Origin: Phoenix dactylifera
Lineage: Eukaryota; Streptophyta; Magnoliopsida; Arecales; Arecaceae
Direction: 5' to 3'
DNA length: 64,000 nt
NCBI RefSeq assembly: GCF_009389715.1
Contig: NC_052400.1
Coordinates: forward strand, 3,100,001 to 3,164,000
Part shown: one piece after another, positions 2,879 to 44,718 of the stretch
Layout: each line of letters starts with the position of its first letter
Numbering within the stretch: position 1 is the first letter of the stretch
Position numbers and translations under genes: made by a program
Notes under the pieces: model-generated
Told to the model about the DNA's origin: nothing
The model's database searches: none
What the model saw: the letters and a program-made list of their open reading frames with translations, nothing else

Positions 2879-3689
2879 CACTACAAGAACATTTGGCATT
2901 GCCAATGCTTTTTAATGGAATTGCCTATACGAAAAGGTGTCGTGAGTCAGATTTTCGACGCTTTCTAAAGCATTGCAAAAGCGTCGACAATGCTACCATG
3001 AGTTATAACACATGATGCTAAAGCATCGTTAATGTATATTTTAATGAAGCTTTAAAGCGTTGCAAGAGTAAATTATTTTTTTAAAAAATATTTAAAAAAT
3101 TTTAAAACTCTGTATATAAATATATACACCAAACACATACATAACAGAAGTCATATAATAATACATGTAATATATATAGAAATAGCAAATATTTATATTG
3201 TCAAATATAATTACATTTACGTTGTCAAACACGATTGAAAATCAATTTACTACTCAATGTGCTTCGAAAAACATAAAAAATATATACATAAAATTTCTAA
3301 AAAAATAGTCTAAGGGCTACATGGGGTCGATGGTAGCATTATCATCATCTTTACGACTATAGAAAGTATCAGAAATCTACAAAGAAAAGATAAAAATTTT
3401 AAAAGTTAAGAATACAAAAATCTCAAAGTATTACAAATTATTAAACTCGTACAAAAATGCATGATAATTATGTAAAATATTTAAATTGATGTAGTTATAT
3501 ATCTGACGAGGGACAAACCTATACAACAAAGATGCAATTTGGTCAAGTTGAACCCTCAAATATTGTATCTCTATCTGATAACTCTGCCTCATCTCCGTCT
3601 GATGGCTCTACCTCATCTCTGTTTGATAGCTCTGCCTGTTCTCCTCCATCTCTGCCTTCACACTATAAACCTTTGCAGTGCTGCTATTA

Positions 3690-4545
3690 TGTCTAGCATT
3701 CTAGGTATATCTGTTTACCGCAAACAACTGAGTGGGGGCAACTTCAATACCATAATTCTTCACTCGACCATAACACTTCAGTCCCATCAATTCAGCGAAC
3801 ACATGAGCTTCGATTGACTGGTCTTAGCAGATGACGATGATTTTCCGACACGTTCTGCAATAAAGAATGTAGCCTCGTCATATATTTTAGAAAAAAAAGT
3901 CACATATTAATTATTAAAAAAATAAAGCTACAAATCGTTGCACAAATCGATTATCAATATACACAACTATCTCTCTCGACTCCTTCCGGACAAAGCTGTA
4001 ATTTCGGTGGGTATGAGTCATCCTATAGAACTGCATCTTACTAGACTCTCGCCTATGCTCTTCCACCTACAACAAAAAGTATATATTATAAACTACATTA
4101 TCCATAATACGTAATATATGATAAAAGGTACACGGTTCATGAAACACATTATATGATTCATGATATACATTATATGATACACGATATACGATACTTGATA
4201 CATAGTTCAATATGAAGAATAAAGTTTCAGTTTGAATTAAAGAAGTCAAAAAGTTTTAATAATACTCATAAGTATCATGATACATTGTACATGATACATG
4301 TTACATAGTTTCATTAAGAAGCATAAGTGTTTCAATATAAAACAAAAGGCAATCATGTGAGAAGAGTTTCAATATAAGTATTCATTGAGTAGTTTGAAAT
4401 ATGACAAAAAAACTTAAAAAATATATACGAATTTATCTCTATGCCTCACATAACTCTTGGAGCCTGATGTGTGAGGAACCACCTGAGATGCCTGTATAGC
4501 TCTACCAATATCGAAATATGTCTGCCAAAAAAAGTAAATAATATA
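3690..4545 (-). pseudogene. Decayed TNPA/Ptta-like transposase exons inside the CACTA element
   Basis: Minus-strand translation gives three coding-like blocks separated by intron-like AT-rich DNA. Near 4540-4440 is a block containing VVPHTSGSKSY, matching the IPHTxGSKSF-type motif of plant En/Spm Ptta proteins. At about 4067-3925, after a TTGTAG acceptor, is a block with HRRESSKMQFYRMTHTHR and FVRKESREI, matching the family's F..THt...gsfvd.rs.e motif. At about 3830-3695 is a block with VFAELMGLKCYGRV and a following NYGIEVAPTQLFAV. Stops after each block and the missing remainder mark it as non-functional. Exon edges are estimates. The identification rests on motif recall, not on an alignment. 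Confidence 0.6.
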
Positions 4546-4830
4546 ATATATTCGATGTATATATTTGCAATCTATATTAATAATAAATACAATATAAGAT
4601 ATTCAAAGAGTATACATAATCTGTCCTCTATCAGAAAATCAGTAATGAAAAAGCTTCCTCCATTGATGATAGTATACATCAGGAGGACAATTATGACTCC
4701 TCCTCTATTATACTATCGCCCTTGTAGTCCATCTTCAACTTCTCTTTATATTCTTTTCATTTGCGGTTGAGAGACTTTAGTGACCAATCATGGCTCTCTA
4801 GAGGGAGCATAAACTTACTATAAGCGTTGA

Positions 4831-4920
4831 GACCAACAAAGAGGGAAAGGAGGAGAAGGAGACCGGCAAAGAGGGAAAGGAGGAGAAGGAGACCGATAGA
4901 GAGGCAAAGGCGGAGCTCAG
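4831..4920. repeat. 30-bp minisatellite, three units, inside the CACTA element
   Basis: Units at 4831-4860, 4861-4890 and 4891-4920 share the pattern GACC..CAAAGAGGGAAAGG. The first two differ at only two bases and the third is more diverged. The period is a multiple of three, so the plus strand reads as a 10-residue Lys/Glu repeat, but no initiation context supports translation. Confidence 0.85.
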
Positions 4921-5335
4921 CGGTGGCAGTGTTACTCTAGATTAGAGAGAAAAGGGGACTGATCAATGGTGGGTCAGTTGATGAAATTGGGAAAATATAT
5001 CGAACCCAACGATGCTTATAAGCGTCATCTTGTTATTGGCTTTCAACAATGCTTATTCGCATCGTCTTATTATTTGCTCCCGATGATGCTTGTAGAAAAG
5101 TGTCAGTAAATCATCCCCGATGCTTATGTGCGTCATCTAATTATTGGCTTCCAACAACGCTTACTAAAAAGCATCGGGATAACCACTTCCTCAACTCCCG
5201 ACGTTTTTAAGTGTCATAATATACCGACGTTAGTAAAAAGCATCGGCAAATTTTGGCGCGATAACCAAATTACCGTTGCTTCTTTCTAGCATTGGCAGAT
5301 CACAGTCGAAAATTTCTATTTTTTCTGTAGTAACC

Positions 5336-10112: not shown

Positions 10113-10747
10113 GAAGCTTTTTCCTTCTAACTGCAAGCAGAAGAAAATATTGCCATGAGAAAATAAAAGATATGGAAGCCAATATTCTTGAGCAAACAAC
10201 CACCAAATACTTGAATTTTCCAGATATAACAATACTAGCAGGGAAGCATAAATTTGAGTATCAAAAGAAGATGAATTGGACAAGGCTCACACTTAAACAG
10301 GAGCTTGTCAAGGAATGACAAATGCATCATCGCAAAAATAATTACATGAAGGCTACAGACATACAAAAGAACATCTGCAATCTGATATTCATAAAAATTC
10401 CTTATGTTGTTGCTTTTCAGCATTAAAACATCCCTCTGCTTCTCAATTCAAGTCTTACCCCGTTTCTTCATAAGACAAACGTCATTTTGACAATGCAGCA
10501 GCCTGTGGAAGGTACTATTTAGGATGGTAAAGCTGTATTCTTTGTCATTCCATCAAGATGTGACTCCCGATCAAATTGGCATGGTTATTCTGAAAGTGAA
10601 TGACAAAGAAGCTAAATCTCACAGTATCTCATCTCCATTTCTTTTGGCATTAATAATTACCTCTTAATTCGGTCCTTTGTGACAAACTCTAAGCACACAA
10701 TCTAAATACACTCATATCAATTGTTTGCCTAACTTTTCTGCATGTAA

Positions 10748-11470
10748 TCACCATGGAGAGCATACTTGCAAACATGAACTATTGACAAAGAGCAACAATT
10801 TATACTATTGAGAAATGCAAATGGGCCATACAGCAGGCCATAGTCAACTCCTCACCATGCATCATATTTTGTGCTAACAAGAATTGAAAGCATTTCTTTT
10901 TCTTCCATTTATGCAACAGCTCTTTCTTGCACATAATGAAGCTTTTACAAAAGACCTCATAGATATTCACCTAACTTTTATATTACAGAGCCACTATGGC
11001 AAGCATATTTAGAAACAATAATTATCAACAAAGCACAACAAATTCTTCTATTGGAAATGCAAATGGGCCACGTGGTATGACATTGCCAACTCTTAATCAT
11101 GCATAATATTTTGTCCTGACAACAACAAAAACCATTTCTTTTTTCTTTTTCAGTTGTGCAAATTAGTTCTTTATTACATATGGTGAAGCTATTGCAAGAC
11201 TTCATAGATAATCACGTGACTTTTCGACACGAAATCACTATGGCAAGCATATTTAGAAACAATAATTATTGAAAAGGAGTGACAATTTGTGCTATTTGGA
11301 AACGCAAATGGGCCACATGACAAGTCATCATCAACTCCTCATTATGCATAGTCATTTTTGTTAACAACAATTGCTAACATTTATTCCTTTAATTTTTATC
11401 ATTTCTGCAACTTAGCTCTTTCTTGCATATACTGAAGCTTTTGCAAAAGATTTCGTAGATAATCTGATAA
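10748..11470. repeat. Three-unit tandem repeat, about 240-245 bp per unit
   Basis: Three consecutive diverged copies begin near 10748, 10988 and 11233. Shared landmarks in order are CACTATGGCAAGCATATTTA, then ATGCAAATGGGCCA, then CAACTC.T.ATGCAT, then TTTCTTGCACATA, then TGAAGCTTTTGCAAAAGA, then CATAGATAATC. Copies 2 and 3 are most alike, and copy 1 starts CACCATGGAGAGCATACTTG. No coding potential is seen. It lies about 4 kb downstream of the EXO70 stop codon. Confidence 0.82.
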
Positions 11471-15366: not shown

Positions 15367-17409
15367 TCACATTACAACCGAAGCGGAGCAAAATTGGCTG
15401 GCCATGACACTGTTAACTTTTCCATTGGAGTGCCTAACCCTAAAGCTTGCAGACTTCCCAGGCTTATGCTGAAAGAGAGATGTGAGCATCTTCTCCAATG
15501 TCGGGGCCGTGTACTTGGCATACTTGCTCGCACTCGCATCCTGCTCCACTAGAGGACCATAGTTCTGCATATAGCTGCGATACACGGGAACGATCGCTTG
15601 CACCACAAGATGGCAAGTCTTCTCCCTCAAGTCCTTGTCCGATATGACCCAATTTGACTGCCTCTGATACATCTCATCGAATGTCTCATTGAATGCCTTC
15701 AACCTCTTCTTCACCAAATCCCGAGCCGTGGCCCTTCCCCCGGAAAACAAAATCAGGCCCTCCCTACTCAACAAAGAGGGGAGCTTTCCCCAGCTCTCCT
15801 TCAAGAACATCGCAGCAGAGTACTCTTTGTACTGCTCGTGCTCCCTCAGCCATGCATCCCCTAACAACTCGCCCAGCTTGGTACCTTTCAAGTGCTTGTA
15901 GAAATGCCAGTGCGTGTTCATCATGAAGAGGTAGGAGAGGGTCGTGTCCTCGTATCCCTTGGACCAAGTCTCGAAATTTGCCTCCAGGGCCTTGATTATA
16001 TTGAGAATGGCATCGGTCAGAAGCCTCTCCTGGAACTTCTCCTGCTTCCAACTCCGATGAATGATCAGAACCTGTGTGAGAACCGGGTGGTAGTCCTCGC
16101 CGAGAAGCTTGTTGCAATAATCCGTGATGAAGCTCACCAGCCTCGGGACGGCGCCATCCGAGGGCGGCGGAGTCTGCCTCTGTAGCTCCACCTGAACCAG
16201 AAGCTCCCAGAAGATGTCGCAGGCTCCATCAATCACCCGCCTGATGAGATCTCTGGTGAGGTTCTGGATCTCGACGCAGGCCTTCCCGCCGAAGAGGCGA
16301 TTGAAGTCCAGCCTCAGCTTGTTCAAGGAGTTGAAGATGTCCAAAAGCTTGAGGAGCTTGATAGGGTCCTTCTTGGCCTCGGTGACGGTCTTCCCGAAGC
16401 GGAGGAAGGCAAGCATGCCGGCCTGGGCGGCGATCTCGGCGAAGCAGGCAGCCCAGACTTCAGGGGGACCGGCGCGTTCGAAGACCTCGCCGCAGAGCTT
16501 GTACTCGGCCTCAAAGAGGTGCTTGACGGCGAACTCGAGGTGGCGGCCCCAGCGGTCGATGTAGGGCTCGATGCTCTGGACGTCGTCGAATCCGGCGGAG
16601 GTGATCTCGAGGTAGTCGAGATTGAGGGCGCGAAGGCTGGCGCGGACGTTGGAGCCCCGGACGTCGATGTACGCGGCGACGCAGCGGTCGAGGCGGTTGC
16701 TCGCGGTCATGCGCTCGAGGATGGCGAGCAGCTTGTGGATGACCGGAACCGGAAGAGGGGAGGGGGCGATAGCGACGCCACCGCCGTCATCGGCGGGGGA
16801 GGAGGAGGAGGAGGGCATGGGGAGGGGGGTGCTATGGTCGGCGAGGAGGCGGCGGAACTCGGCCTCGAGCTTGTCGAGGGCGGCGTCGAGGAGGCCGCCG
16901 TCGAGGGGGGAGGAGGAGGTCTTGAGGGCTGCGAGGGAGGTTTTCAGAGCAGATAAGAAGCGGGGGTCGGCCACCGAGTGGTCGTCGAGGTAGTCGACGA
17001 TGTCGTCGAGCCACTGGATGGCGAGGCTGCAGTTGTCGGAGAGGAAGCGGAGGGCCTCCTCGAGGCGCTTGAGGACGGAGAGGTAGCCGGGAAGGTCGGC
17101 TTGGGGGTCGGAAAGGAGGGGCAGCTCGAGGCCGTGGACGGCGTCGAACACCTTGAGGACGGCGGCCGCGGGACCGACGGCACGGTCGATGTGGCCGCCG
17201 ACGGCGGCGAGGGCGTCGCGGTGGGCGCAGATCGGGCGGACGGCGGCCTCGAGTGTGGGGAGGCGCTGCTGGATCTCGTCGAGGCGGGGTCCAGCGCGTG
17301 CCAGCGCCGCCGAGAGCGCCTGCGACTTGTCCAGGCTCGCCCGCAGCGACCGCCGGGCAGCCACGAGGCTGGCGATGCCCCCCTCATCCGCCGGATCCGT
17401 CGTCATCAT
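15367..17409 (-). CDS. EXO70: Exocyst subunit EXO70 family protein (EXO70G-like), single exon
   Basis: A 680-residue intronless open frame. The first in-frame ATG is at 17409; the codon before it, GTG at 17412, is not a plausible plant start. The protein opens with an amphipathic helical region (SLVAARRSLRASLDKSQ, ARAGPRLDEIQQRLP) followed by GHIDRAVGPAAAVLKVFDAV and SVLKRLEEALRFLSDNC, which I associate with the EXO70G clade. From roughly residue 270 to 660 it matches the Exo70 C-terminal domain, including RRVIDGACDIFWELLV, YLFMMNTHWHFYKHLKG and the helix around FNETFDEMYQRQSNWV. EXO70 binds plasma-membrane phosphoinositides and brings the exocyst, hence secretory vesicles, to exocytosis sites; plant paralogues are specialised by tissue or pathogen response. 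Length is normal for single-exon plant EXO70s. GC content falls strongly from 5' to 3', as in many monocot genes. Family confidence is very high, clade confidence moderate. Confidence 0.95.
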   Translation of the reverse strand: MMTTDPADEGGIASLVAARRSLRASLDKSQALSAALARAGPRLDEIQQRLPTLEAAVRPICAHRDALAAVGGHIDRAVGPAAAVLKVFDAVHGLELPLLSDPQADLPGYLSVLKRLEEALRFLSDNCSLAIQWLDDIVDYLDDHSVADPRFLSALKTSLAALKTSSSPLDGGLLDAALDKLEAEFRRLLADHSTPLPMPSSSSSPADDGGGVAIAPSPLPVPVIHKLLAILERMTASNRLDRCVAAYIDVRGSNVRASLRALNLDYLEITSAGFDDVQSIEPYIDRWGRHLEFAVKHLFEAEYKLCGEVFERAGPPEVWAACFAEIAAQAGMLAFLRFGKTVTEAKKDPIKLLKLLDIFNSLNKLRLDFNRLFGGKACVEIQNLTRDLIRRVIDGACDIFWELLVQVELQRQTPPPSDGAVPRLVSFITDYCNKLLGEDYHPVLTQVLIIHRSWKQEKFQERLLTDAILNIIKALEANFETWSKGYEDTTLSYLFMMNTHWHFYKHLKGTKLGELLGDAWLREHEQYKEYSAAMFLKESWGKLPSLLSREGLILFSGGRATARDLVKKRLKAFNETFDEMYQRQSNWVISDKDLREKTCHLVVQAIVPVYRSYMQNYGPLVEQDASASKYAKYTAPTLEKMLTSLFQHKPGKSASFRVRHSNGKVNSVMASQFCSASVVM

Positions 17410-17412
17410 CAC

Positions 17413-17830
17413 CCCGAAACCCTTTACAAATCAACCGGGACTTGAGAAGCGGCGCGTGGAACTGGACTCGATTGATACCCTCCGAGTCTAGCCTGGAGAG
17501 AGGATGGAGAAGAGAAGGAATGGCATTCTTATTATAACGTTGGAAGAGATTAGGATGATGGGGATTGATGAAGGGGAGTTTGGGGGTTGAGACGCGGTGG
17601 ACAAACTAATGTTGACCGGATTGGAGATAGGAGGTGTTTTTGTGGTTTACAGGTGCCTTCAGAGGAGGGGTTTTGGTAGGAAAAATAGAAGGGGAGATGG
17701 GTTTGTGAGAGGAGAAAGAGGGGAGGAGTTGAACGTTGCACAAAGGAAGGATGGAGATGGGCGGATGGTGGAAAGCTGAAGCTAAGGCTGCTGAGGGAAG
17801 GATATATAAATCCACTTATAAAAAAAGTTG
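17413..17830 (-). promoter_or_regulatory. EXO70 5' UTR and core promoter region
   Basis: On the minus strand a TTTATATATCC at about 17803-17812 is a good TATA candidate roughly 395 bp upstream of the ATG. A second weaker GTTATAATAAG lies near 17525-17536, about 120 bp upstream. Which is used cannot be decided from sequence. The intervening DNA is purine-rich on the plus strand (pyrimidine-rich in the transcript sense), as in many plant leaders. Confidence 0.45.
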
Positions 17831-29467: not shown

Positions 29468-30150
29468 TGTTGTGGGATGGGGTTCCCAGTTTAGTCCCAT
29501 ATCGGATAATCAGCGGAAAGGTCTGTGCCTTAAATAGGGGGTGCAAACACCTCTTCTCACCGAAGGCCCACGGGCTGGAGGTAAGAGGGTCCCCCTACGG
29601 GGGGACAAAACCGTGAGGGACACCTGTCCAGCTGCCACGCGCCTGCAGGTGGGTCCGCCACCGTGCGAGCCAAAGCGCCCACGGTTCCCAAAGCGGACAA
29701 TACCATATCGCTCTGAGCTGAGCTGCTCCAGCACTCTCTCATGACCGAAGGCCCACGGGCTGGAGGTAAGAGGGCCCCCCTACGGGGGGACAAAACCGTG
29801 AGGGACACCTGTCCAGCTGCCACGCGCCTGCAGGTGGGTCCGCCACCGTGTGAGCCAAAGCGCCCACGGTTCCCAAAGCGGACAATACCATATCGCTCTG
29901 AGCTGAGCTGCTCCAGCACTCTCTCATGACCGAGAGCCCTTTTGTAGGACAAAACCGTGAGGGTAGGGGTAGTACCTCCGCGGACCCCCGCGCCGGCAGG
30001 GCTCGGGACTGTCATTGGGCCACGGCCCTGGGCGACCTCCTGCAGACCCGAAGCGGCAATCCCAGAGCGGACAATACCTCGGGGAGGACGCGGATGCTTT
30101 CTCTGCTCGTCCGGTGTGCGGGCTGGTGTTGGGGTTCCGACCCCACATCA
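29468..30150. mobile_element. Solo LTR (683 bp) with 5-bp target duplication
   Basis: The segment begins TGTTGTGGGATGGGG and ends GACCCCACATCA, so it has TG...CA termini and imperfect inverted ends (TGTTGTGGG versus TGATGTGGG). The five bases ATGGC occur immediately before (29463-29467) and after (30151-30155). The sequence AGTCCCATATCGG near the left end and TTAAATAGGG at about 29530 (a TATA-like box) are common in plant LTRs. There is no PBS, polyprotein or second LTR, so this is best read as a solo LTR left by recombination. A TRIM-type element is the alternative. Confidence 0.78.
29559..29928. repeat. Two-unit 185-bp tandem duplication inside the solo LTR
   Basis: Units 29559-29743 and 29744-29928 are nearly identical; I see only about two differences (GGTCC versus GGCCC, GTGCGAG versus GTGTGAG). 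A third diverged, partial unit starts at 29929 (GACCGAGAGCCC...GACAAAACCGTGAGGG). The near-identity shows the duplication is recent relative to the third unit. Confidence 0.93.
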
Positions 30151-32862: not shown

Positions 32863-34032
32863 TCAGATCTCGCGGGAGGAGGCGAACATGAGAGCATCGG
32901 TGGGATCGGGTACAGGGTTCTGGGTGTGGCGATGCTCCCCTTCGTACGTTACGATCAGCATCGAAGGGTCGTCCGGCGCCCGCTCGACGTGCTTCCTCGC
33001 AGGGCAACCCCTCAGGCTGCTGCACTTGTAATAGCCCCTGAGAGAGAGAGACCCATTAGATCGACTGCAGGCCGTTCGATCTCGATCAAACGGAATGGCA
33101 GAAGATGGATGCTTACCGCGGGTAAGGGGAGCCCTTGATGGGCTTCTGCCCGTATTTGCGCCACGAGTACTCGTCGGGAGGGATGTCGGCCATCTTCGAG
33201 CTTATCGCCGGCACTCTGATCGTCTTCTTCACCCGAGATTTCCTTCATTTTTTTAATTAAAAATTAATTTAGTGGAAAAAAAAAGGAGAATAAAAAGCGT
33301 CCAAGCTGTGAAGTGCTGGGTGGGGGGTTTGTTGATTTATGGTTACCTTCTCTTGGAGCAGTGGCAGCGGCCGCCGGTGACGGCGTACTTGCCGGAGACG
33401 AGCTCGGGGTGGGCGTGCTCGTGGCACTTCTTCTTGTAGGAGGACGAGAGGGGCGGCTTGCCGGCGGAGACGGCGGCAGAGGGGGCGACTGGGGGGAGGA
33501 GGAGGGACGATCCCTGCTTGCCGTTGGAGACGCTGCCGTCGCCGGTGATGGACGACAAGAACGAAGAGTTCGTCGAAGACATCGGGGTCGAGATGCTGAA
33601 GCTCTCCTTGGTGTACTGGCTGGTGGCGATGTCGCCGCCTCCAACGACGACGGAGCACGGGCCCGGCTTCGGCTTGGTGAAGTCCAGCGTCAGGGTCTGG
33701 GGAGGCGGAGGCGGAACCGCCGGCTGGGGTGGCTGCGCCTGGAGGGGAATCGGGGATAGGGTCAGGGTCTGAGTCGCCGGCGAGGGGGGCGGGGGAGGCG
33801 CTGCCGTTGTGCCACGGCGGAAGCGGGCGTGGCCGGTGCGGTTGAGGATGGAGATGACCTTCTTGAACTTGGAGACGGTGAGATCGGTGATCTCGCGGCA
33901 GTCGAGCTGCTGGGACTTGCGGTGGGAGATCTGGAAGATGAGGTGCTCCAGGCTCCGGAGCCCCGCGGCGGTCGCCTCCTGGATCGCGATCTGGTCATCC
34001 ATCTTCGAGTAGCCCATCATATCAACAGCCAT
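32863..34032 (-). CDS. WRKY: WRKY transcription factor, group IId, three exons
   Basis: Exons 34032-33347, 33242-33117 and 33037-32863 join with GT-AG introns of 104 and 79 bp to give 328 residues. I start at [14 protein letters not shown] rather than at the upstream extension, because group IId proteins begin this way. Domains in order: N-terminal helix (residues 12-35); calmodulin-binding C-motif with [20 protein letters not shown] (about 50-73); Pro-rich linker; plant zinc-cluster region with CHEHAHPE and [10 protein letters not shown] (about 205-230); WRKYGQK at 256-262; zinc ligands C276, C282, H306 and H308 (CX5CX23HXH). The intron inside the WRKY domain falls between PYPR and GYYK, the expected R-type position. 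These nuclear proteins bind W-boxes (TTGAC) and mostly act in defence and stress signalling, tuned by Ca2+/calmodulin. No broken residue is seen; it looks functional. Confidence 0.96.
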
Positions 34033-34180
34033 CTTGATCGGAGGCGAACGCAGTCGCCGGTAAAAAAAATAAAATAAAGAGATCCCGACCTCAATCTCTC
34101 TCCCTCCGTCGAGAAGGAAGTACCAGGCCAACGGAGGGGGAGGATGAAACGAGGAGTAAATGAAAGGAGCCGGAAGAGGA

Positions 34181-34190
34181 TTATATAAAG
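34181..34190 (-). promoter_or_regulatory. TATA box of the WRKY gene
   Basis: Minus-strand TTTATATAAT, about 150 bp upstream of the chosen ATG, the usual spacing for a plant gene with a leader of about 120 nt. Confidence 0.7.
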
Positions 34191-34221
34191 TGGAGCGGGC
34201 CAAACGGGAAACGGAGATACG

Positions 34222-34227
34222 AGTCAA
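34222..34227 (-). promoter_or_regulatory. W-box (TTGACT) upstream of the WRKY TATA box
   Basis: TTGACT reads on the gene's own strand about 30 bp upstream of the TATA box. A second TTGACT is at 34565-34570. W-boxes are the binding site of WRKY proteins, so auto- or cross-regulation is plausible, though a six-base motif also occurs by chance. Confidence 0.5.
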
Positions 34228-34267
34228 AGGAGCGTTTCCATCACGCGGCTGTGATCTTATTTAGTTT

Positions 34268-35415: not shown

Positions 35416-38400
35416 AACAACTTAGATACTAGAAATAATGATTATTATTTAACTTTATATTGTCCACTGATGTGGTTAGCATTTGACCTGAGCTTGGTGT
35501 GTAGGTCGGCATCATCCTAACTGTGCTAGTGACCGAAATAAATTTCCCTTTAGTCTTGGACGGGGTGTTGGATGGGTGGAACTTAGCAGTGGAAAAATGT
35601 CATTTGTCTCTCATTGAAGTCTATTTAAGGATTGTTAATGCCATCAAGCAATGATTACAATCTTTTAGAACCTGTAGTTAATTTCTACCCATATGCATGA
35701 CTTGGTAGTCATTACTGAACCCTCTTTTATATATAGGCAACCTGGGGACCATCTTGTAAATAATATTTCTCTTCAAAATTTTTGTCTCTCTCTCAAACTC
35801 TTCCTATGTCCCTAGAATCCAGTTAAGTTAATCATCAAAAGATCTCTTGTTGGACAAACTCCGACAATCAACCTGTTTCTTCTTCTTATTTTCAAATCGG
35901 CGAGCCATTGTTCAACTTGAGCTCAAGTTTATTTACTAATATCGGCTTCTACCAACTCTCCAGCAAGTATCACGCTTGGAGCTTCGTTACAAACTTCAAC
36001 TCTTCACCTCAATTATCAACCAACTTCAATTTTTCAATTCGAATTCCAGCAGCAACATCTATCTACATAGGTACAACAAATATGACCAACATCATTGCTC
36101 ATATTCCGTGCAATTAAAAATTATTAAAGAGTAAAATATTAATTATCACAATACACCTGACCATATTACTATTTATTAAATAAAAAATTCTATTTTATCT
36201 AGTTGGTGCAGTTATTGGGCAAAAATTGGGAAAACCAACCAAACAGTGCCTATCACTGTATAATACTGTAGATAAATGATTTTGAGTTATTTTAACCTTT
36301 GATTGGAGAGCGAAGGACATGGGCTGGTTTCTGGCCCGGTATCGTTTTTTGCATGCACGTGGTTTTCTTTTCTAGAAGGGTAAGTCAGGCTTTGCTCCTT
36401 ATTAAAAGGAAAACCGAGACCGTTGCTGACTAACGTGGGGACCCGGGCATTTGCTTCTGGAGCGAAACAGTTGACTGACCGGCACCGCTTGGGTGACCGG
36501 GAGTAGACGGTGAGCCATCTCAGCCGTCGGCTCGCTTAGCCGGATGGGTGTAGGCGAAACGGTAAGTTTGACCAAGAAAGGAGAGCATACGAATAATTAA
36601 AGTGTGTCTCGAGCTAGCGATTGTAGACACGTGGCGTTTAGCATCCGCGGTGATGAGGATAACTGGCGTCATTGTAGGGGACGAAAATCGTGGAAGCGCA
36701 TATATATTATATATATGGATGGATGCATGCATGCATGAATGCATGCATTAGCTGGTTCAAGCGCCCACGTATGCTTATTGGATGGGCTTTGACATACACA
36801 TTGGCCCATAAGGCCCGATTATATTGATGTTTCTAGTTTTCCCTCTCTTTCGTCCATGCTTACAATATTGCTCTGGTTTTAAGAATATCACAATTTATTC
36901 TTTGCCTTCTTTATAGCTGCTTTGCCTCTTTCACAATTATTTTATTGATTTCGAGTTTTATGTTGCAATGTTTCTATTTGTTGCATTAGTAAAGCTAATA
37001 GCGAATAAATCCCCATTTGTTAGTGTTCATGATAATGCCGTTTAACAAACATGTTTGATATATTGTACTCTCTTGTAAGCTTGCATCAAAAACAATATTT
37101 TTTGAAATAAAAATTTATGATGCATTTAGAAAATGAACTAATATTAAAAAATTTCCTTATCAACAAATCTATATTGTATCCATGCATTCTTTTGAATAGA
37201 GGAGAGGTACCAACATTTTGGGTCAAAAACTATCTTGGTCTCCTTCACTCTTAGCAGCTGCAGTAGATTTTGTATGCCAAACAAAAAAAATAAAGGATAA
37301 AGCAATATTCTTATTAGATGTCATGCATTTCTTTTGTAAAAATATTATACCTATCTATATTCGTTGGGGCTGAAAGTGGGTCGGATTATATCTGACTGTA
37401 TTTGTTTCCCTATATAATTTGGATCGGATTCAGATACTAGTTTTTTGGTTCGATCGGGTCTAGATACAAATTTGAATAGTCTATTCAAAAAAATTTCAGA
37501 TATGGATACAATATGATTTTTTCAGATTCGGATCTGGATCTGAATATCTATATAATAAGAGTAAGTAAAAAGAAGAAGTTTAAGTTAAGTTAAATCAAAG
37601 AACCAATTAAGTGATTAACTAAATGTAAACTAAAAAAATCTAAATATCGGATGATCGTCATTTAAAATAATAATCCAAATACAGAATACTTGATTTGAAT
37701 AAAATTCTTTGAATCACTTCGCATGCTTGAAAGGCTCAAACCTCTCATTCGTCTATTAATTTCATCCTTCTTTCTTCTTCGTCATCTTCAAACAACTAAA
37801 GTTTCAAAGGTTCTTTCCATTTCCTAGTTGCCACTCAGTGATTGCAACCGGCCACAACCATGAGATGCCTTAGAGGTTTCATAGATCCGGTTTATTTTGG
37901 CGACAAGCAACCTTTAGTGGTATATCCTTTATAAATTGTCAGTTTTTATTATTGATAAATGCTTATTAGAATTATATTTTTTAAAATTGAATATTTTCTT
38001 TATGATCATATCTTTATTGTTAATTTTCATGATTGAATTTTACTCAAATTTGATTAATATCCAAAAAAGTATCCAATTTATATCCTATTTAAATAAAAAA
38101 TATGGATATGTTTAATATCCAGTTCATTTTGGTATCCATTTATAATAAATATGGATATGCTTAACATCCGATTTGTATCCACGTCTATTTAAAATAAATA
38201 TGGATATTAATTTTGATATCCGTTTAATATTCGTATCTGTATCCATATTGATTAAAATATATAGATATATCAATATCCGATCCAAGCCGATTTATTTTTA
38301 GCCCTATTATTCGTAGGAACTATAGTATACTGTATCATGGGCTACTGGGTCTAGAATTCTGTCTCTTTGGACTTAAGCCCATCAAACAAATTGCTTACCG

Positions 38401-39557
38401 TCATGACAAATGTGAGGAACATGGGCTTAAGTAATGGACCTTGTTGCCAGGGTAATATGGGCCAGGTGCAGGTGACGTTTCCTACTGGTCCAAGCCTGTA
38501 ATGGCTATTTTATGAATTCTGGAATCTGGATCCTTATAATGGGCCATAAAATTATGACAGCATTTATTTATTTATTTGTTATATTTGTTTTATAAATAAC
38601 TACATTTTGGAAGGTCTCACTCAATCTTGACAGTTCCATGGACTGTGAACGGCCTGGAATTGCTCGCCATAATATTAATTCCACAAGGCATGATGGAATT
38701 TTCTGCGGCAGATGAGAGATTGGTGGAATTCACAAGGTATCCATTGCATCCAAACACATGTTCGCATGGCAACCTTATTTGCGTAGCACTCAATAGAGAT
38801 CTTTAAATCGAATGTGACATGCAGATTGTGATCCAGAATTAAAACTGCAGCCCCGAAATTGGAGAGAACTATCTCGCACTTGATCATGAACGCCAAGAGT
38901 TCATTTATGCCCTTGTTCGATAGAACTTCATATATATATATCCTCGAAAGAAAAAAAAATACATCTCTCATGCACCATGGCAATCAGATTGTCTAGTTCC
39001 TAAAAGCTGCATTTATTATATGCTCATCTCGATAATTGGCTCATAGAAATTGGACGACTTGATTAGTATAGTGTCTGATTTTGCCCAACAAAAGAGATAA
39101 TTTCAAAGGCATATCCTTCTCCTCCTTCTGATGTTTGAAATCATTGCGGTGCAACATTGGATTATTTTTTAAAATTTGTCATGGCAACTTTTTGCGAAAA
39201 CTATTGCATATGGTTGATATGTCTAGTAAAATTATTGGAGGGTAAGCAAAAAGGTCAATTTTTTTGATCTCTAGATTAATTCATGATACCAAGTGCGCAG
39301 ATAGTCCTGGATATAACAATCACACAATATTTTAGCCATACCCTATCTTATTTTGTTATTTTTCTTCTCTTCTTTGTCATTTTTCAAACCAGTGGGATGC
39401 TGGATTTTTTTTTTTTTTAATATAATTTCCAAGGTCCCAGGTGGTCCCAATGGGCTCCTCCGATCTGTTTATGGGGGGACCTCATAATGGGATAATGGAC
39501 CGAGCCTGAGCTGATGACATGATTATTTTTTGAAGGACTTGCACATCGTGGCCTAAA
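35416..39557. other. Intergenic DNA
   Basis: No gene supported. It includes an ATGCATGC-rich stretch at 36718-36750, a GC-richer patch at 36420-36540, and an AT-rich dispersed repeat at about 37375-38290. The open frame at 38675-38983 (minus) has no recognisable family. Confidence 0.5.
37375..38290. repeat. Dispersed AT-rich repeat, copy 2
   Basis: Many ATATGGATATG, TATCC(A/G)TTTA and GGATCGGATTCAGATAC-like motifs recur. In style and words it matches the repeats near 27385 and 57772. The ends are undefined. Confidence 0.45.
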
Positions 39558-40084
39558 CAATCTTCAAAAAAAAAATTGCCGACATATACATACTGACGCT
39601 AGATAGAAATATCGATAATTTTGACTCCGACGCCAAAATTTGCTGACGCTTCTAAGTAGTATCGGCAGGGGTCATGGAAAGCAAATTGTTAGACGAAACT
39701 TATAAGCATCGTCAGAGGCTAAGGAGGGAGAGAAAGGAGTTGACGATGCTTAAAAGCGTTGTCAGACTCCTATGCACTAACCTCCTCCTCTTAACACTAA
39801 CTTTCACTAAACTCCGCCTAAACACTAACTTGAGACGATACTTATAAGCGTCATCGTTGGCCAAGAGGGGAAGCACCAGACAGCGCTTAAAAGCGTCGTC
39901 GGACTCCTAAGCACTAACCCCCTCCTTTTAACACTAACTTCTACTAAACACTGCCTAAACACTAACCTAAGACGATGCTTATAAACATCGTTGGAAGCCT
40001 AGGACCTAAGATGACACTCGTAAGCGTCGACGAAAGCCTAGGACCTAAGACGCCAACACAACAAACCCCTTTTTAGAAGAACCC

Positions 40085-40620
40085 ATCAAACTTTTCTGCT
40101 TTCTCCAACCCTAGCCCCCTTTACCTTCTCTCTGGCACCTCCGAATCCCTTCTCTCAGAACAACGGCAACAACAACAACAAGTGCTTTCCTCTTGCTTCG
40201 CCTCTTTTTCTCTGTTGTTCTCGTGAATTTTGCTACTACTGCTAAATCCTTTCTCTTCTAAGCCGACCGATGAGATCACCACCGTCTCTGAGAGGATCGA
40301 GGGCATCGATCCCCTCCTCGAATGCATCCAAGCCCTTAAGATCAAGAGCTCTCTCCCCCTCTCTTCCCTCAACTCCAGAAAATAGCCTCTTTCTGGTTCG
40401 CTTCTCATTTTATTCTCTTCTTCGATGGATCGTTGCAGACCACGCCATTGTTGAAATCTCTGCCTCCTTCCGAGAGCTCCTTGACGGATATTCTCGTGAG
40501 GAAACCCTCCTCCACCTCCTCTGTATCAGGTGAAGAAACCTTTCGAGAGCTCCTTTACTTTTTTATTACATGTTTCTGGAGAAATTTAAAGGATGGATTC
40601 AACTATGTGCTCTTGCTTCT
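40085..40620 (+). pseudogene. Unrecognised gene-derived segment inside the Pack-CACTA
   Basis: GC-richer sequence with a 5'-UTR-like CT-rich start. One plus frame (about 40262-40382) reads DEITTVSERIEGIDPLLECI followed by QALKIKSSLPLSSLNSRK and a stop; after an intron-like TTGCAG (about 40436) another reads LLKSLPPSESSLTDILVRKP. It looks like exonic DNA from a cellular gene but I do not recognise the family. It lies immediately upstream of the P450-reductase piece, so it could be a second captured gene. Confidence 0.4.
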
Positions 40621-40626
40621 CTGGTA

Positions 40627-41300
40627 GAGGTCGGGTGGCGAGAAGGCCACCTGGCAATCAATCCCCCGCGGCCGCTGGCAGTCGAGGAGGAGCCAGAGTA
40701 CGAGCTTGATGGTGGGAGAAAGAAGGTCACCATCTTCTTTGGCACCTAGACCGGCGCCGCAGAAGGCTTTGCTAAGGTCAAGATCTTCGATTTGATTACG
40801 CCGCACTTCTTATCTTGGAAATTATTCCCTCTCAAAAAAATGTTTCTTTTATTTTTATTTTCTTTTTTTCAATTTCTTTTCCCTAACTTGAAAAATCCAT
40901 GCCTTGACCAATCTCCGCTAAGGAGGCAAGGGTGTGATATGAGAAGGTCATCTTCAAAGTTGTTGATCTTGTATGACTTTTTCTACTTCCTTGTCTTTTC
41001 TTGGAATATTATTAGATGAGTCGAGAATTCCGACTCGTTTGATTGATTATTTGTGGTTTGATCTTGATCATTGGCTCGTTTTTGTTTGCTCCACTATTCA
41101 TAGGATGATTACTCAGCTGATGATGATGGATACGAGGAGAAGATGAAGAAAAAGACATTGAAGTTGTTCTTCTTTGGCAATGTGAGTTGTAATTTGTATG
41201 TTATTCTTTCTTTCCAGTTTCCCCTACAATTATTCTTTTATTTACCAATTTTGGGTGAGCCAACGGATAATGCTGCTAGGTTCTATACATGGTTTATCGA
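40627..41300 (+). pseudogene. Captured fragment of NADPH-cytochrome P450 reductase (FMN domain), decayed
   Basis: Three exon-like blocks in the order and sense of a plant P450 reductase. Block 1 (40627-~40790) ends PEYELDGGRKKVTIFFGT, stop, TGAAEGFAKVK, matching the FMN phosphate loop FFGTQTGTAEGFAK with Gln changed to TAG (40747-40749). Block 2 (~40915-40970) reads KEARV, stop (40935-40937), YEKVIFKVVDL. Block 3 (41104-41181) reads [20 protein letters not shown] then LFFFGN, and the following piece (41252-~41300) reads [16 protein letters not shown]. The real enzyme has YEKA.FKVVDLDDYA...[20 protein letters not shown] here. GT...AG intron-like gaps remain between blocks, so capture was from genomic DNA, not from mRNA. 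The NADPH/FAD part is absent. It cannot make an enzyme. Confidence 0.85.
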
Positions 41301-41704
41301 GGTTAGAGGAGATTTTAATAGCCTTTAGTAAAACTGTCTTATACTGTGTTGTCTTTTGCAATAGCGTATTGAAGGCAGTGTCTGGGCCTCTGGCTGTTTG
41401 GTTTTAGGGGAAGGAGAGGAAAGTTTGGCCAAATTGTAAACAGTTTATACTAATCATGCATCTTTTAAATTATTTTTTTTTAAAAATAATTATAACGATG
41501 CCTTAAAGCATTACTATTAGAAGCGTTGCTAATTAGCGGTGCTTATAAGCGTCTCTAAATGTAGTGTTGGCAGTTAGCGACGCTTTCTCCAAATGTCGGT
41601 AAATTTTTTTACAATGCTAATATTGTTAATACTTTTGCGATGCTTTATAAAGCGTCGGTATACGCAATAAAAAGCATTGGTACTGTCCGATTTTTTTTAT
41701 AATG

Positions 41705-43176
41705 GGTGTAGATGCGTAGAACTATGCTGCAAAATCTCGCGTGAATTCTTTCGTGCATGTCTTGCTGGTTTTAGTGATACTGTGAGTTATTTTAACCTTC
41801 ATACTAACAAAACTCTGAAGCTCAAATAAATATTTTTTTTGAGGGAAAATTCACTCATGTCACTTCCTTGGATATTCTGACAGCACGGATCACTCACTCT
41901 TACTGTGGGAGGACTGCCTGATATATAATGTGGGTTACAGGCAGCAAGGAGGTGACACTTACTGGCAACCAATATCTCTGTCATCTTTGTATAAGCAAAA
42001 GGAATAAACAAAGTTCTTTGTTATCTCTCTATTATCTTTGCCAAAAAAAAAAAAAAAAATTCTTGGGAGTCTAAACCAAAAGCACTGTGTGCTCCCTTAC
42101 GCCATGGCATGCTTGGCTTGAAACCAGTAATAACAGTGTGACCCACTAGTTGATAACCCATCAAGTCTCTTAGCAGGGTGGCAAAAATCCAGGAGGCCAT
42201 CACTAAAGAGACATGTGGGAGGATCCGAAGATTGTAATAATCTTATTACTTCTACATGAAAGGTGGCTCCTACGTTTCTAAATTAGGTTTGCAAGATCTT
42301 GGGTGATGCATTCAGAGAGACTGATGTTTGGGATCGATTTGGTTGTCTCATATTAACTTTGCCAACAATATTTTATATCCAAATAATTTATTTGAGTGTT
42401 TTTCCAAATTTGTTAGTGTAAATATATATCAGGCTATTAAAGAAATACCAACAACTCTAGGAATCGGTATAGTTGAAAATAAAAGAGTAAGTGGTGAGAA
42501 TTGTATTTCTATCTGTCTTTTACAATGTATAGGAGCAGCCCTTATATAGTACGAGAAGACTGATCAAGTTTGGCACAATCAATCACAAATCAATTAAAGT
42601 CCTAATCAATCATATTATTCTAACAGTATGATTATTTCACATGTGCAAAGTGGCTACATTGCAAACAATCAAGTATTTATTTGTATAATTAATTGTGAAC
42701 TCTAGAATCATTAACCATGATTTGTAACATTAAAATTGGTTAGAAATCAAAATCATGCATTTTTGATATTTTTTATCCGTGCAACAACTGAAAACAAAAT
42801 TGTCCTTCACATTTCAATTTGATCTATAGTTTAGAAATATCTAAATTAGTAAAAATTTGATCAGTATATATTTTAAAATATTTGAACTAAAATCAACATT
42901 TTGAATTGCAAATTATATAGTTTATTTTATGTTTTTGTTCACTAGCTATATTTCCACCATTTTTTTAAAATAAAAGAATCAATTTCTAAGTATTTTATAT
43001 TTTTTAGATCATGGTTAATGATATATTTTCATTTTGAAAGTCGTTTATTATTGTTAACTAAGAAGTATTTGGAATCAAATAATCTCACAAGCATCCAAGT
43101 CTCTTTCTCTCTCTCATCTACATACACACATACATACATATGTGTATATATACAGAGAGAAAGAGAGCTGAACCTG
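41705..43176. other. Intergenic DNA
   Basis: AT-rich with an A-run at 42043-42058 and no recognisable gene. A CT/GA-rich near-palindrome (CTCTTTCTCTCTCTC ... GAGAGAAAGAGAG) spans about 43099-43168, directly before the fold-back element. Confidence 0.5.
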
Positions 43177-43506
43177 GTTACACTCAAGTGGATCTCACTC
43201 AAATTTGGTCAAGTCTAAATTAAACAACGGAAGTTCAATATCGTTGATCTAAGCCATTAGATATGATTTATCTTTAAATTACTTATTCACAAAAAATTAT
43301 ATGATTGGAGTCCTCTAGCTTATGCATCAAGTAATAAAAAAATATATAATTTAATTTTATTTAGATTGTCTAATTTTTTAACTATTTGAAGAATAAGTTA
43401 GGAATCTTCAAATTACATAATTTTTGACGTATAAGTATTTAATTTAGAATCCCACTATCTAATATAGATCTCACTATATTTGAACGGAGATCCACTTGAG
43501 TGTAAC
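43177..43506. mobile_element. Fold-back MITE-like element, 330 bp, 20-bp perfect terminal inverted repeats
   Basis: The left end GTTACACTCAAGTGGATCTC is exactly reversed at the right end (43487-43506). Inside, weaker inverted similarity continues (AAAAATTATATGATT versus AAAAATTATGTAATT), so the whole unit could fold on itself. No target duplication was found and the superfamily is unassigned. Confidence 0.72.
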
Positions 43507-44479
43507 TAAATGTTACTATCTTTTTATACACACACACATATATATATATATATAAAATTAACTATGTTGAAGGAAGTAATTAATTAAATATACTTAGCAT
43601 GTGCCGGTATTGAAGAAATATCAGTTAGCGAAAGCTTATCTTAGTAGTAGATTATTAATGGCGATGCTACTTGTTCGAGCAGTAATGATTAATTTAAACA
43701 AGAGATTAGCTTAACCCCAAGATCTAGCACCACGGCGGAATGGAAGGGTATCCAATGCAAATATTCCCCCAGTCCACGAATTCCATCGGCAGGGGGCTCA
43801 CTCCTTTTCCCTACTTTATTTCATGTCGTGAGAGGACCCGAGCAAAAAGACAAAGGAATCGACCATCCCATCGTAATCTTCTTGGGATTGGCAACGAATC
43901 TATACGCAATTTATATATTTCCAAAGTAAACGGTCTGTATATTTGTGTTCATCAGATGTGATCGGTGACACGTCACCTAGCTTCCTCTCCTTCTACGCTT
44001 TCCACACCCTTTTTTATTTTTTTTGGTTATATGCATGCATGGTTACAGGAATGCAGGAAATTAAAAGAAAGAAATCCAGGTGGCAAGTCAAGCAATACGC
44101 TCCAAGGGTGTCCCAACCAAGTGGATGTCTCCATCTTTCATTTCCTTGTTGTCTGCATGCATATTTGTTACTGTACCTTCTCATGCTAGATCATTTCATT
44201 AGATCTGTGTTTGTCACTCAACAATTTGAGTGACCCATTAGCAAAACTTGGTTAGCACTTCGTATATGTTCGACAACACTGAAATCTGGACCTTTTAGCT
44301 ATGTTTCTATTGTACCCAGGCCTAGAACGTGCAATTAGTCTCCTGCGGAGATGACCTTTTCATGTTATCGTGTGTATAGTTGCGGCCATTCCAATACCTT
44401 GCCATGCTCATTGAAATGTATGCTGAAACCCTCTATGTATCTCTTAGATACTAAGGGCTCGGGTAAGAGAGGTTTTGCA

Positions 44480-44718
44480 ATTTTAGAATCTAGTCAGATG
44501 ATTTGGTTGAAAATTCTAAAAAATATATAGATTAGTCTAATACAACTAGCAAAATTTTAGGATTACAGGTTGGACCAGATATATATTCATAAATATCCAA
44601 AAGGTTGGACCAGATAGACCTATTCTAGTTTGTAATCTTATGATTTTGTTAATTGTACTGATCTAACTAATAAATTCTTCAAAATTTTCAGTCTGATCAT
44701 CCAAATAGATTTTTAGTA
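44480..44718. mobile_element. Fold-back MITE-like element, about 240 bp
   Basis: Left-half words GATTTGGTTGAAAATTCTAA, ACAACTAGCAAAATTTTAGG, ATTACAGGTTGGACCAGAT reappear inverted in the right half (GATTTGGATGATCAGACTG, ACAATTAACAAAATCATAAG, ATTACAAACTAG). The two arms are imperfect copies around a short spacer near 44585-44610. The borders are approximate. Confidence 0.6.

Follow-up and report, generated by a model that had tools for sequence, protein, structure and literature searches.

An old CACTA element of Phoenix dactylifera that very probably carries fragments of a P450 reductase gene and a second host gene

The window analyzed here, 64,000 nucleotides of the Phoenix dactylifera genome (C9:3100001-3164000), contains what is very probably an old Pack-CACTA transposon that combined the 5' parts of two unlinked host genes, one encoding NADPH-cytochrome P450 reductase (CPR) and one that we refer to as gene X, and that now occupies at least three places in the genome. 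This element, element A (39558..41704, + strand), is a decayed, non-autonomous CACTA element whose ends align to those of a second element in the window, element B, and to those of sister copies elsewhere. Capture would have taken place at the DNA level by template switching while a broken or gapped element was being repaired, and element A would have moved with a CACTA transposase acting in trans. A second family, family F, took exon 1 of another CPR gene independently and much more recently. The genome searched comprises 773,078,369 bases in 2391 contigs.

Element A and its two captured fragments

The left end of element A is placed to within about 5 bases and the right end at 41704; the element is written on the + strand because its left end is the counterpart of the transposase 5' end. 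The 5' subterminal region (39560..40052) contains six GACGCTTATAAGCRTC-type palindromes, at 39695, 39745, 39837, 39882, 39974, and 40013, as well as a 137-bp tandem duplication, and belongs to a genomic repeat family with at least 50 matches (40 of 184 candidates scored). The 3' subterminal region (41480..41704) is recognized by subterminal motifs, an end match to element B, and the sister copies. A scan of both strands of the window for the CACTA-type palindrome GACGCTTATAAGCRTC, allowing up to 3 mismatches, returned 21 matches compared to 0.63 expected. These matches fall at 11 places, 10 of which are inside A or element B, so that both elements display the subterminal arrays of short repeats that are a trait of the CACTA (En/Spm) superfamily.

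The termini of A are less well preserved. The right terminal repeat (41694-41704) reads inwards as CATTATAAAAA against CACTACAAGAA, agreeing at 8 of 11 bases, and the left terminal repeat is poor, with roughly 5 to 7 of 10 to 11 bases agreeing by eye. The flanking bases are ACA or similar on the left and GGT on the right, and a target duplication is not recognizable. The left and right ends of A resemble each other slightly, with 2 of 300 shuffles scoring as well and a repeat of the test giving a score of 26 against a best shuffle of 24. We found no transposase sequence inside A.

We used the better-preserved element B (2879..5333, - strand) to identify and orient the ends of A. Element B has a perfect CACTACAAGAA left end, a right end that reads TACTACAG inwards, and an ACC/ACC target duplication. 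Pfam profile matches place Transposase_24 remnants at 3917-4066 and 4417-4602 on the - strand; the two pieces are consecutive in the profile (E 0.062 for profile positions 29-49 and E 0.0007 for 51-91), and both fall short of the curated cut-off. The right end of A resembles the left end of B, and the left end of A resembles the right end of B, with none of 300 shuffles as good for either pairing. Among the crossed pairings, left with left was equaled by 17 of 300 shuffles, whereas right with right was equaled by none and stood one point above the best shuffle. When the outer 200 bases were compared against 200 shuffles, the matched pairings scored 41 and 43 (best shuffles 26 and 28), and the crossed pairings scored 20 and 21 (best shuffles 27 and 25). 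The matched end pairings indicate that A is one element lying in the orientation opposite to that of B, and the original prediction that the flanks are CACTA ends is borne out by both this match and the sister copies, which have both ends and target duplications. From the orientation of A it follows that the gene X and CPR pieces both lie in sense relative to the transposase end. Antisense effects on the parental reductase had been raised as conceivable; relative to that end of its carrier, the CPR fragment of A is in sense, not antisense.

The CPR gene fragment occupies 40601..41429 on the + strand; it begins in exon 1, where the membrane anchor ends, and reaches just into exon 5, so that it includes introns 1-4. 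The BLAST match covers 40609-41429, and the first bases, from about 40601, were placed by eye via the sister copy on C2. On reading 38000-44500, we recovered all four reductase landmark blocks where the original prediction had placed them, in order on the + strand; reductase sequence is indeed present across the predicted 40627..41300, but the fragment is longer on both sides and includes the start of exon 5. The intron-like gaps between the blocks are genuine introns, as the closest CPR gene, on contig C284, aligns through exons and introns alike. The exon 1 remnant (40601..40776, + strand) has TAG at 40747-40749 where the C284 gene has CAG, and the exon 2 remnant (40912..40970, + strand) reads TGA at 40935-40937 in place of the CGA of that gene, so that both predicted stops are real and each is a single C-to-T change. 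The exon 2 acceptor has changed from CAG to CAA. A 10-bp insertion at the start of exon 2 was considered and rejected because the C284 exon begins TCTCTGACC and it is the acceptor of A that is altered instead. The exon 3 remnant (41104..41181, + strand) keeps its AG and GTGAGT splice sites and has a one-base insertion near its end, while the exon 4 remnant (41254..41301, + strand) has lost its acceptor and first bases to a 24-bp deletion. The match to the gene stops with the start of exon 5 (GKERKVW; 41408..41429, + strand).

Protein-level comparisons agree with this assignment. The joined landmark blocks, with X at the first stop, matched the PDB CPR chains 5gxu from Arabidopsis (E 9.3e-28) and 7sux from sorghum (E 1.5e-27), and the next best match was at E 7.5e-6. 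In exon 5, GKERKVWPN extends the PDB match to GNERGVWLN, and 6 of 1000 shuffles of the local stretch were as good. The CPR piece also matched Flavodoxin_1 in Pfam above the cut-off (E 1.4e-7). When both CPR proteins were compared by tblastn to the whole window, the best matches were at 41104-41301 (E 2.4e-10) and 40696-40776 (E 9.5e-8), with the exon 2 block weak alone (E 0.07 and 0.84), and no reductase pieces besides these blocks were found at E <0.1. An Rfam scan of the window found nothing. A processed (retro-) pseudogene carried along by chance is an extremely improbable origin for the fragment and was rejected: we found no support for it, and the fragment retains introns 1-4, each of which can be aligned with its counterpart in the C284 gene.

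The captured DNA had been described as a single piece of a reductase gene. The reductase origin stands, but the element carries two gene fragments, since part of gene X, previously unseen, lies upstream at 40134..40587 on the + strand and consists of the 5' leader, exon 1, intron 1, exon 2, and part of intron 2 (exons by eye). Positions 40134-40533 match C2:3108679-3109096 at 85%, with a further match at 40554-40587, and the C2 locus reads by eye as a multi-exon gene with open exon peptides. The gene X pieces in the window had no match in the PDB at E up to 10, and the donor exons had none above the cut-off in Pfam, where the best were DUF3150 (E 0.052) and LOH1CR12 (E 0.091). Within A, the stretch at 40053-40133 has no assigned source. 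The junction between gene X and CPR (40588..40600, + strand) matches, with 1 mismatch, a site approximately 75 to 90 bases upstream in gene X intron 2. This corresponds to a backward jump inside gene X, which suggests template switching, a reading that rests on one short junction.

Donor genes, sister copies, and decay of the cargo

A CPR protein search of the genome returned 26 matches, which include four CPR genes, a contig-edge copy of one of these genes on C573, the piece in the window, two sister elements, and nine places with exon 1 only. Within the stretches examined, CPR exons could be followed as far as the C-terminus (query residue 618) in C284 and C573, to query residue 592 in C203 and C7-5.76M, and to query residue 226 in C7-1.37M, where the examined stretch ends. 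A search for the parental gene in the same genome had been proposed, and the closest CPR locus that we found for A is C284, on another contig, at 84.2% over 868 columns with four introns included. The next best is C7-1.37M, at 70.1% over 854 columns. The loci on C284 (L034) and C573 (L036) are 99.8% identical, and their alignment of 8909 columns contains 18 gaps but not a single mismatch. The C284 frame is broken near query residues 460 and 605, and C573 has neither break; because the two loci differ by gaps only, these breaks may reflect misassembly.

Two sister copies of A were identified, on C2 at 16.29 Mb (L031) and on C15 at 4.82 Mb (L001). The C2 copy aligns to A over 39566-40787 and 41039-41660, and the C15 copy aligns in pieces over about the same span. 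Both carry the same cargo as A and share with it the gene X/CPR and CPR/carrier junctions. Both also lack 40788-41038, which covers most of intron 1, exon 2, and part of intron 2, and have a similar short filler there. The C2 copy ends in CATTAC and GTAGTA within a GTT/GTT target duplication, and the C15 copy ends in TACTATAG and GTAGTG, with the right end intact, within AAG/AAG. Three places with the same junctions, two of them with 3-bp target duplications, imply that the cargo moved with the element. Element A thus combines host gene fragments inside a non-autonomous element with joint movement of that cargo, as in Pack-CACTA elements.

The sister copies also bear on whether A could instead be what is left of a local CPR gene, tandem or dispersed, with CACTA elements having inserted later on either side of it. 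As the terminal repeats and target duplication of A have decayed, the window by itself is compatible with two nested insertions. However, the junctions among gene X, CPR, and carrier recur at three places, target duplications surround the whole unit at two of them, and no second CPR piece was found in the window, which makes a local remnant very unlikely. A tandem remnant had been set beforehand as the outcome that would count against capture; instead, the closest gene lies elsewhere, and the cargo is present at two other places.

The capture itself had been described as old and decayed, and the divergence from C284 agrees with decay without constraint. Between A and C284, 49 of 375 exon bases (13.1%) and 32 of 437 intron bases (7.3%) differ. 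Between the C284 and C7-1.37M genes, the corresponding values are 38 of 375 (10.1%) and 93 of 366 (25.4%). Judged by these proportions, the CPR genes are under constraint, and the exons of A have no sign of it. This picture is plain only for A and appears weaker in the sister copies, where exons differ less than introns: 33 of 316 exon bases (10.4%) and 37 of 267 intron bases (13.9%) for C2, and 40 of 238 (16.8%) and 44 of 201 (21.9%) for C15. With C284 taken as the starting state, 50 of the 82 differences in A are C>T or G>A and 13 are the reverse; the counts are 37 and 18 of 73 for C2 and 44 and 18 of 87 for C15. Such an excess is as expected for methylated transposon DNA. The TAG at 40747 is absent from both sisters and therefore probably arose in A only. 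Given this unconstrained decay since capture, the cargo of A is most likely of no present use to the host and looks like dead DNA.

The substitution rate of palms is 2.6e-9 per site per year. At this rate, the intron divergence of A and its two sisters would correspond to approximately 15 to 50 My, and the copies of family F would be at most approximately 4 My old, all of which are poor dates. A single capture would explain the unequal intron distances of A (7.3%), C2 (13.9%), and C15 (21.9%) only with unequal rates, and this counts against the explanation that we otherwise favor.

A second CACTA family with CPR exon 1

The nine exon-1-only places in the CPR search constitute family F (L037-L045, e.g., L038 4236-5675), a CACTA family of about 1.3 to 1.5 kb per copy. 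All copies begin with CACTAC and end with GTAGTG (once ATAGTG), and a 3-bp target duplication was seen by eye in 9 of 9, although the TTT of L040 lies in a T run. Because the copies on C11 and C589 align together with their flanks (99.6% over 9006 columns), the nine copies represent eight distinct insertions. Pairwise differences between distinct insertions range from 0.56 to 2.2%, and the low values, down to 0.6%, suggest that the family moved fairly recently. The captured piece, F bases 376-790, matches the C203 CPR gene at 98.3% over 415 bp and C7-5.76M at 85%, and it spans the CPR 5' leader and start codon, the membrane anchor, and the beginning of the FMN domain. When this piece was used as a query against the genome, 13 matches from 13 candidates were returned, namely the nine F copies and the four CPR genes; the search did not recover the A family, and more diverged copies may thus be missed.

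The left end of F resembles the right end of A (56 against a best shuffle of 27), and the right end of F resembles the right end of element B (32 against 22), while the score of the F right end with the A left end amounts to almost nothing (25 against 23). As oriented from its sequence, the CPR piece of F is antisense to the transposase direction, opposite to the situation in A. Different donor, orientation, and junctions make F a capture event separate from that of A.

These features raise the question of whether captured CPR pieces act on the host, either through small RNAs that would dampen CPR genes or as exons in chimeric transcripts. Element A is decayed and just 84% identical to its closest gene, and F is the better candidate, with about 415 bp at 98% to C203 in antisense to the carrier, from which RNA complementary to C203 might arise. 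CPR has been captured at least twice, the anchor reading frame of F is intact in 6 of 9 copies, and the differences from C203 that are common to F copies are mostly silent (3 of 4, with 1 replacement at the junction). On the other hand, the frame is broken in 2 of 8 insertions (3 of 9 copies), by a TAG in L039 and by shifts in L042/L043, and of the private codon changes in the six intact copies, 6 of 7 alter the amino acid and 1 is silent. The private changes argue against selection on the protein since capture, and we consider an effect on the host unlikely.

Relatives of F indicate that such elements may exchange their interiors. Among the 40 candidates scored out of 959, the first 265 bases of F, or most of them, recur at 91 to 98% at a minimum of 31 places other than the nine copies of F itself. 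Two of these relatives, L055 and L056, keep pieces of the F flanks and hold a MYB-like piece between them, as seen in the left end and interior that were examined; the piece in L055 matches PF00249 (E 3.5e-13), and L056 reads alike. In F, a 13-nt direct repeat, GTTCACAATCCCT, brackets the CPR insert at F 365-377 and 788-800 (L038 4600-4612 and 5023-5035). When the joined flanks were used to look for an empty insertion point, the 40 candidates scored (of 80) matched on one side only, and a 26-base pattern had no occurrence with 2 or fewer mismatches. The simplest reading is that interior DNA of F-type elements was replaced during repair.

A different route of capture has been published for Pack-TYPE elements and is described in PMC8903248 and PMC13317346: two adjacent CACTA insertions fuse and move as a unit, in place of template switching inside one element. 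The duplicated subterminal stretch on the left side of A is compatible with such a fusion. However, the two fragments in A best match donors on different contigs and meet at a backward jump, the F insert lies within a 13-nt direct repeat, and the same flanks enclose another gene piece in two relatives. Simple fusion predicts neither the A junction nor the F flanks and is therefore disfavored, and we regard it as a possible but less probable alternative to template switching. A bolder reading holds that CPR would be a preferred recurrent CACTA cargo, that F would be a living source of small RNAs tuning CPR, and that related elements would retain their ends and exchange what lies between them, such as MYB for CPR, through break repair. 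We think this reading improbable as a whole; if it were true, the predicted F small RNAs would act on an enzyme that serves as a hub, since microsomal P450s depend on it.

Comparison with known elements and other features of the window

Gene fragment capture of this kind is already known, and the present case is a further member of Pack-CACTA. PMC8903248 reports Pack-CACTA elements in Arabidopsis, rice, and maize, with maize cargo often derived from more than one locus. As here, the elements described in that paper have non-autonomous CACTA ends around host coding DNA, are mostly of low copy number, and vary in cargo between elements with similar ends. The present case differs in its host genome and in that CPR was taken twice, from two paralogues and in opposite orientations. 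The CACTA set of that paper is stated to have 5-nt target duplications, whereas those found here are 3 nt, and a 3-bp target duplication is given as a CACTA feature in PMC8978399 on Chenopodium. According to the latter paper, captured fragments of Chenopodium CACTA elements lie in the 5' region beside subterminal repeats, as in A, but outside the coding sequence of the element, which is still present, whereas no transposase sequence was found in A. Tgm-Express1 of soybean (PMC1947982) resembles A in that it, too, is a CACTA element in which pieces of several unrelated host genes retain both their introns and their exons; it has five fragments and is spliced into transcripts of the gene it occupies. 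Among the titles listed for CACTA elements and P450 reductase or palms, none reports this capture, which is no proof that it is unpublished. What is notable here is the repeated capture from one small gene family, together with apparent cargo exchange. The case is also a well-documented instance of natural gene-fragment shuffling, in which donors, junctions, sister copies, and two independent captures can be read in one genome. Family F is a clean collection of copies in which the uptake and exchange of host DNA by CACTA elements can be studied, along with the question of whether near-identical captured exons feed back on the donor gene.

Apart from the two CACTA elements, the window contains an intact-looking exocyst gene, a single open frame of 687 aa at 15367-17430 on the - strand with a match to Exo70 (PF03081, E 1.3e-103). 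An open frame at 33343-34260, also on the - strand, matches Plant_zn_clust (E 1.2e-5), which occurs in some WRKY factors. Two tandem repeats are present as well: a G+C-rich unit of 185 bp at 29559-29933, in two copies that are 98% alike, and an array at 10728-11370 with a 245-bp unit, 2.6 copies, and 72% matches.
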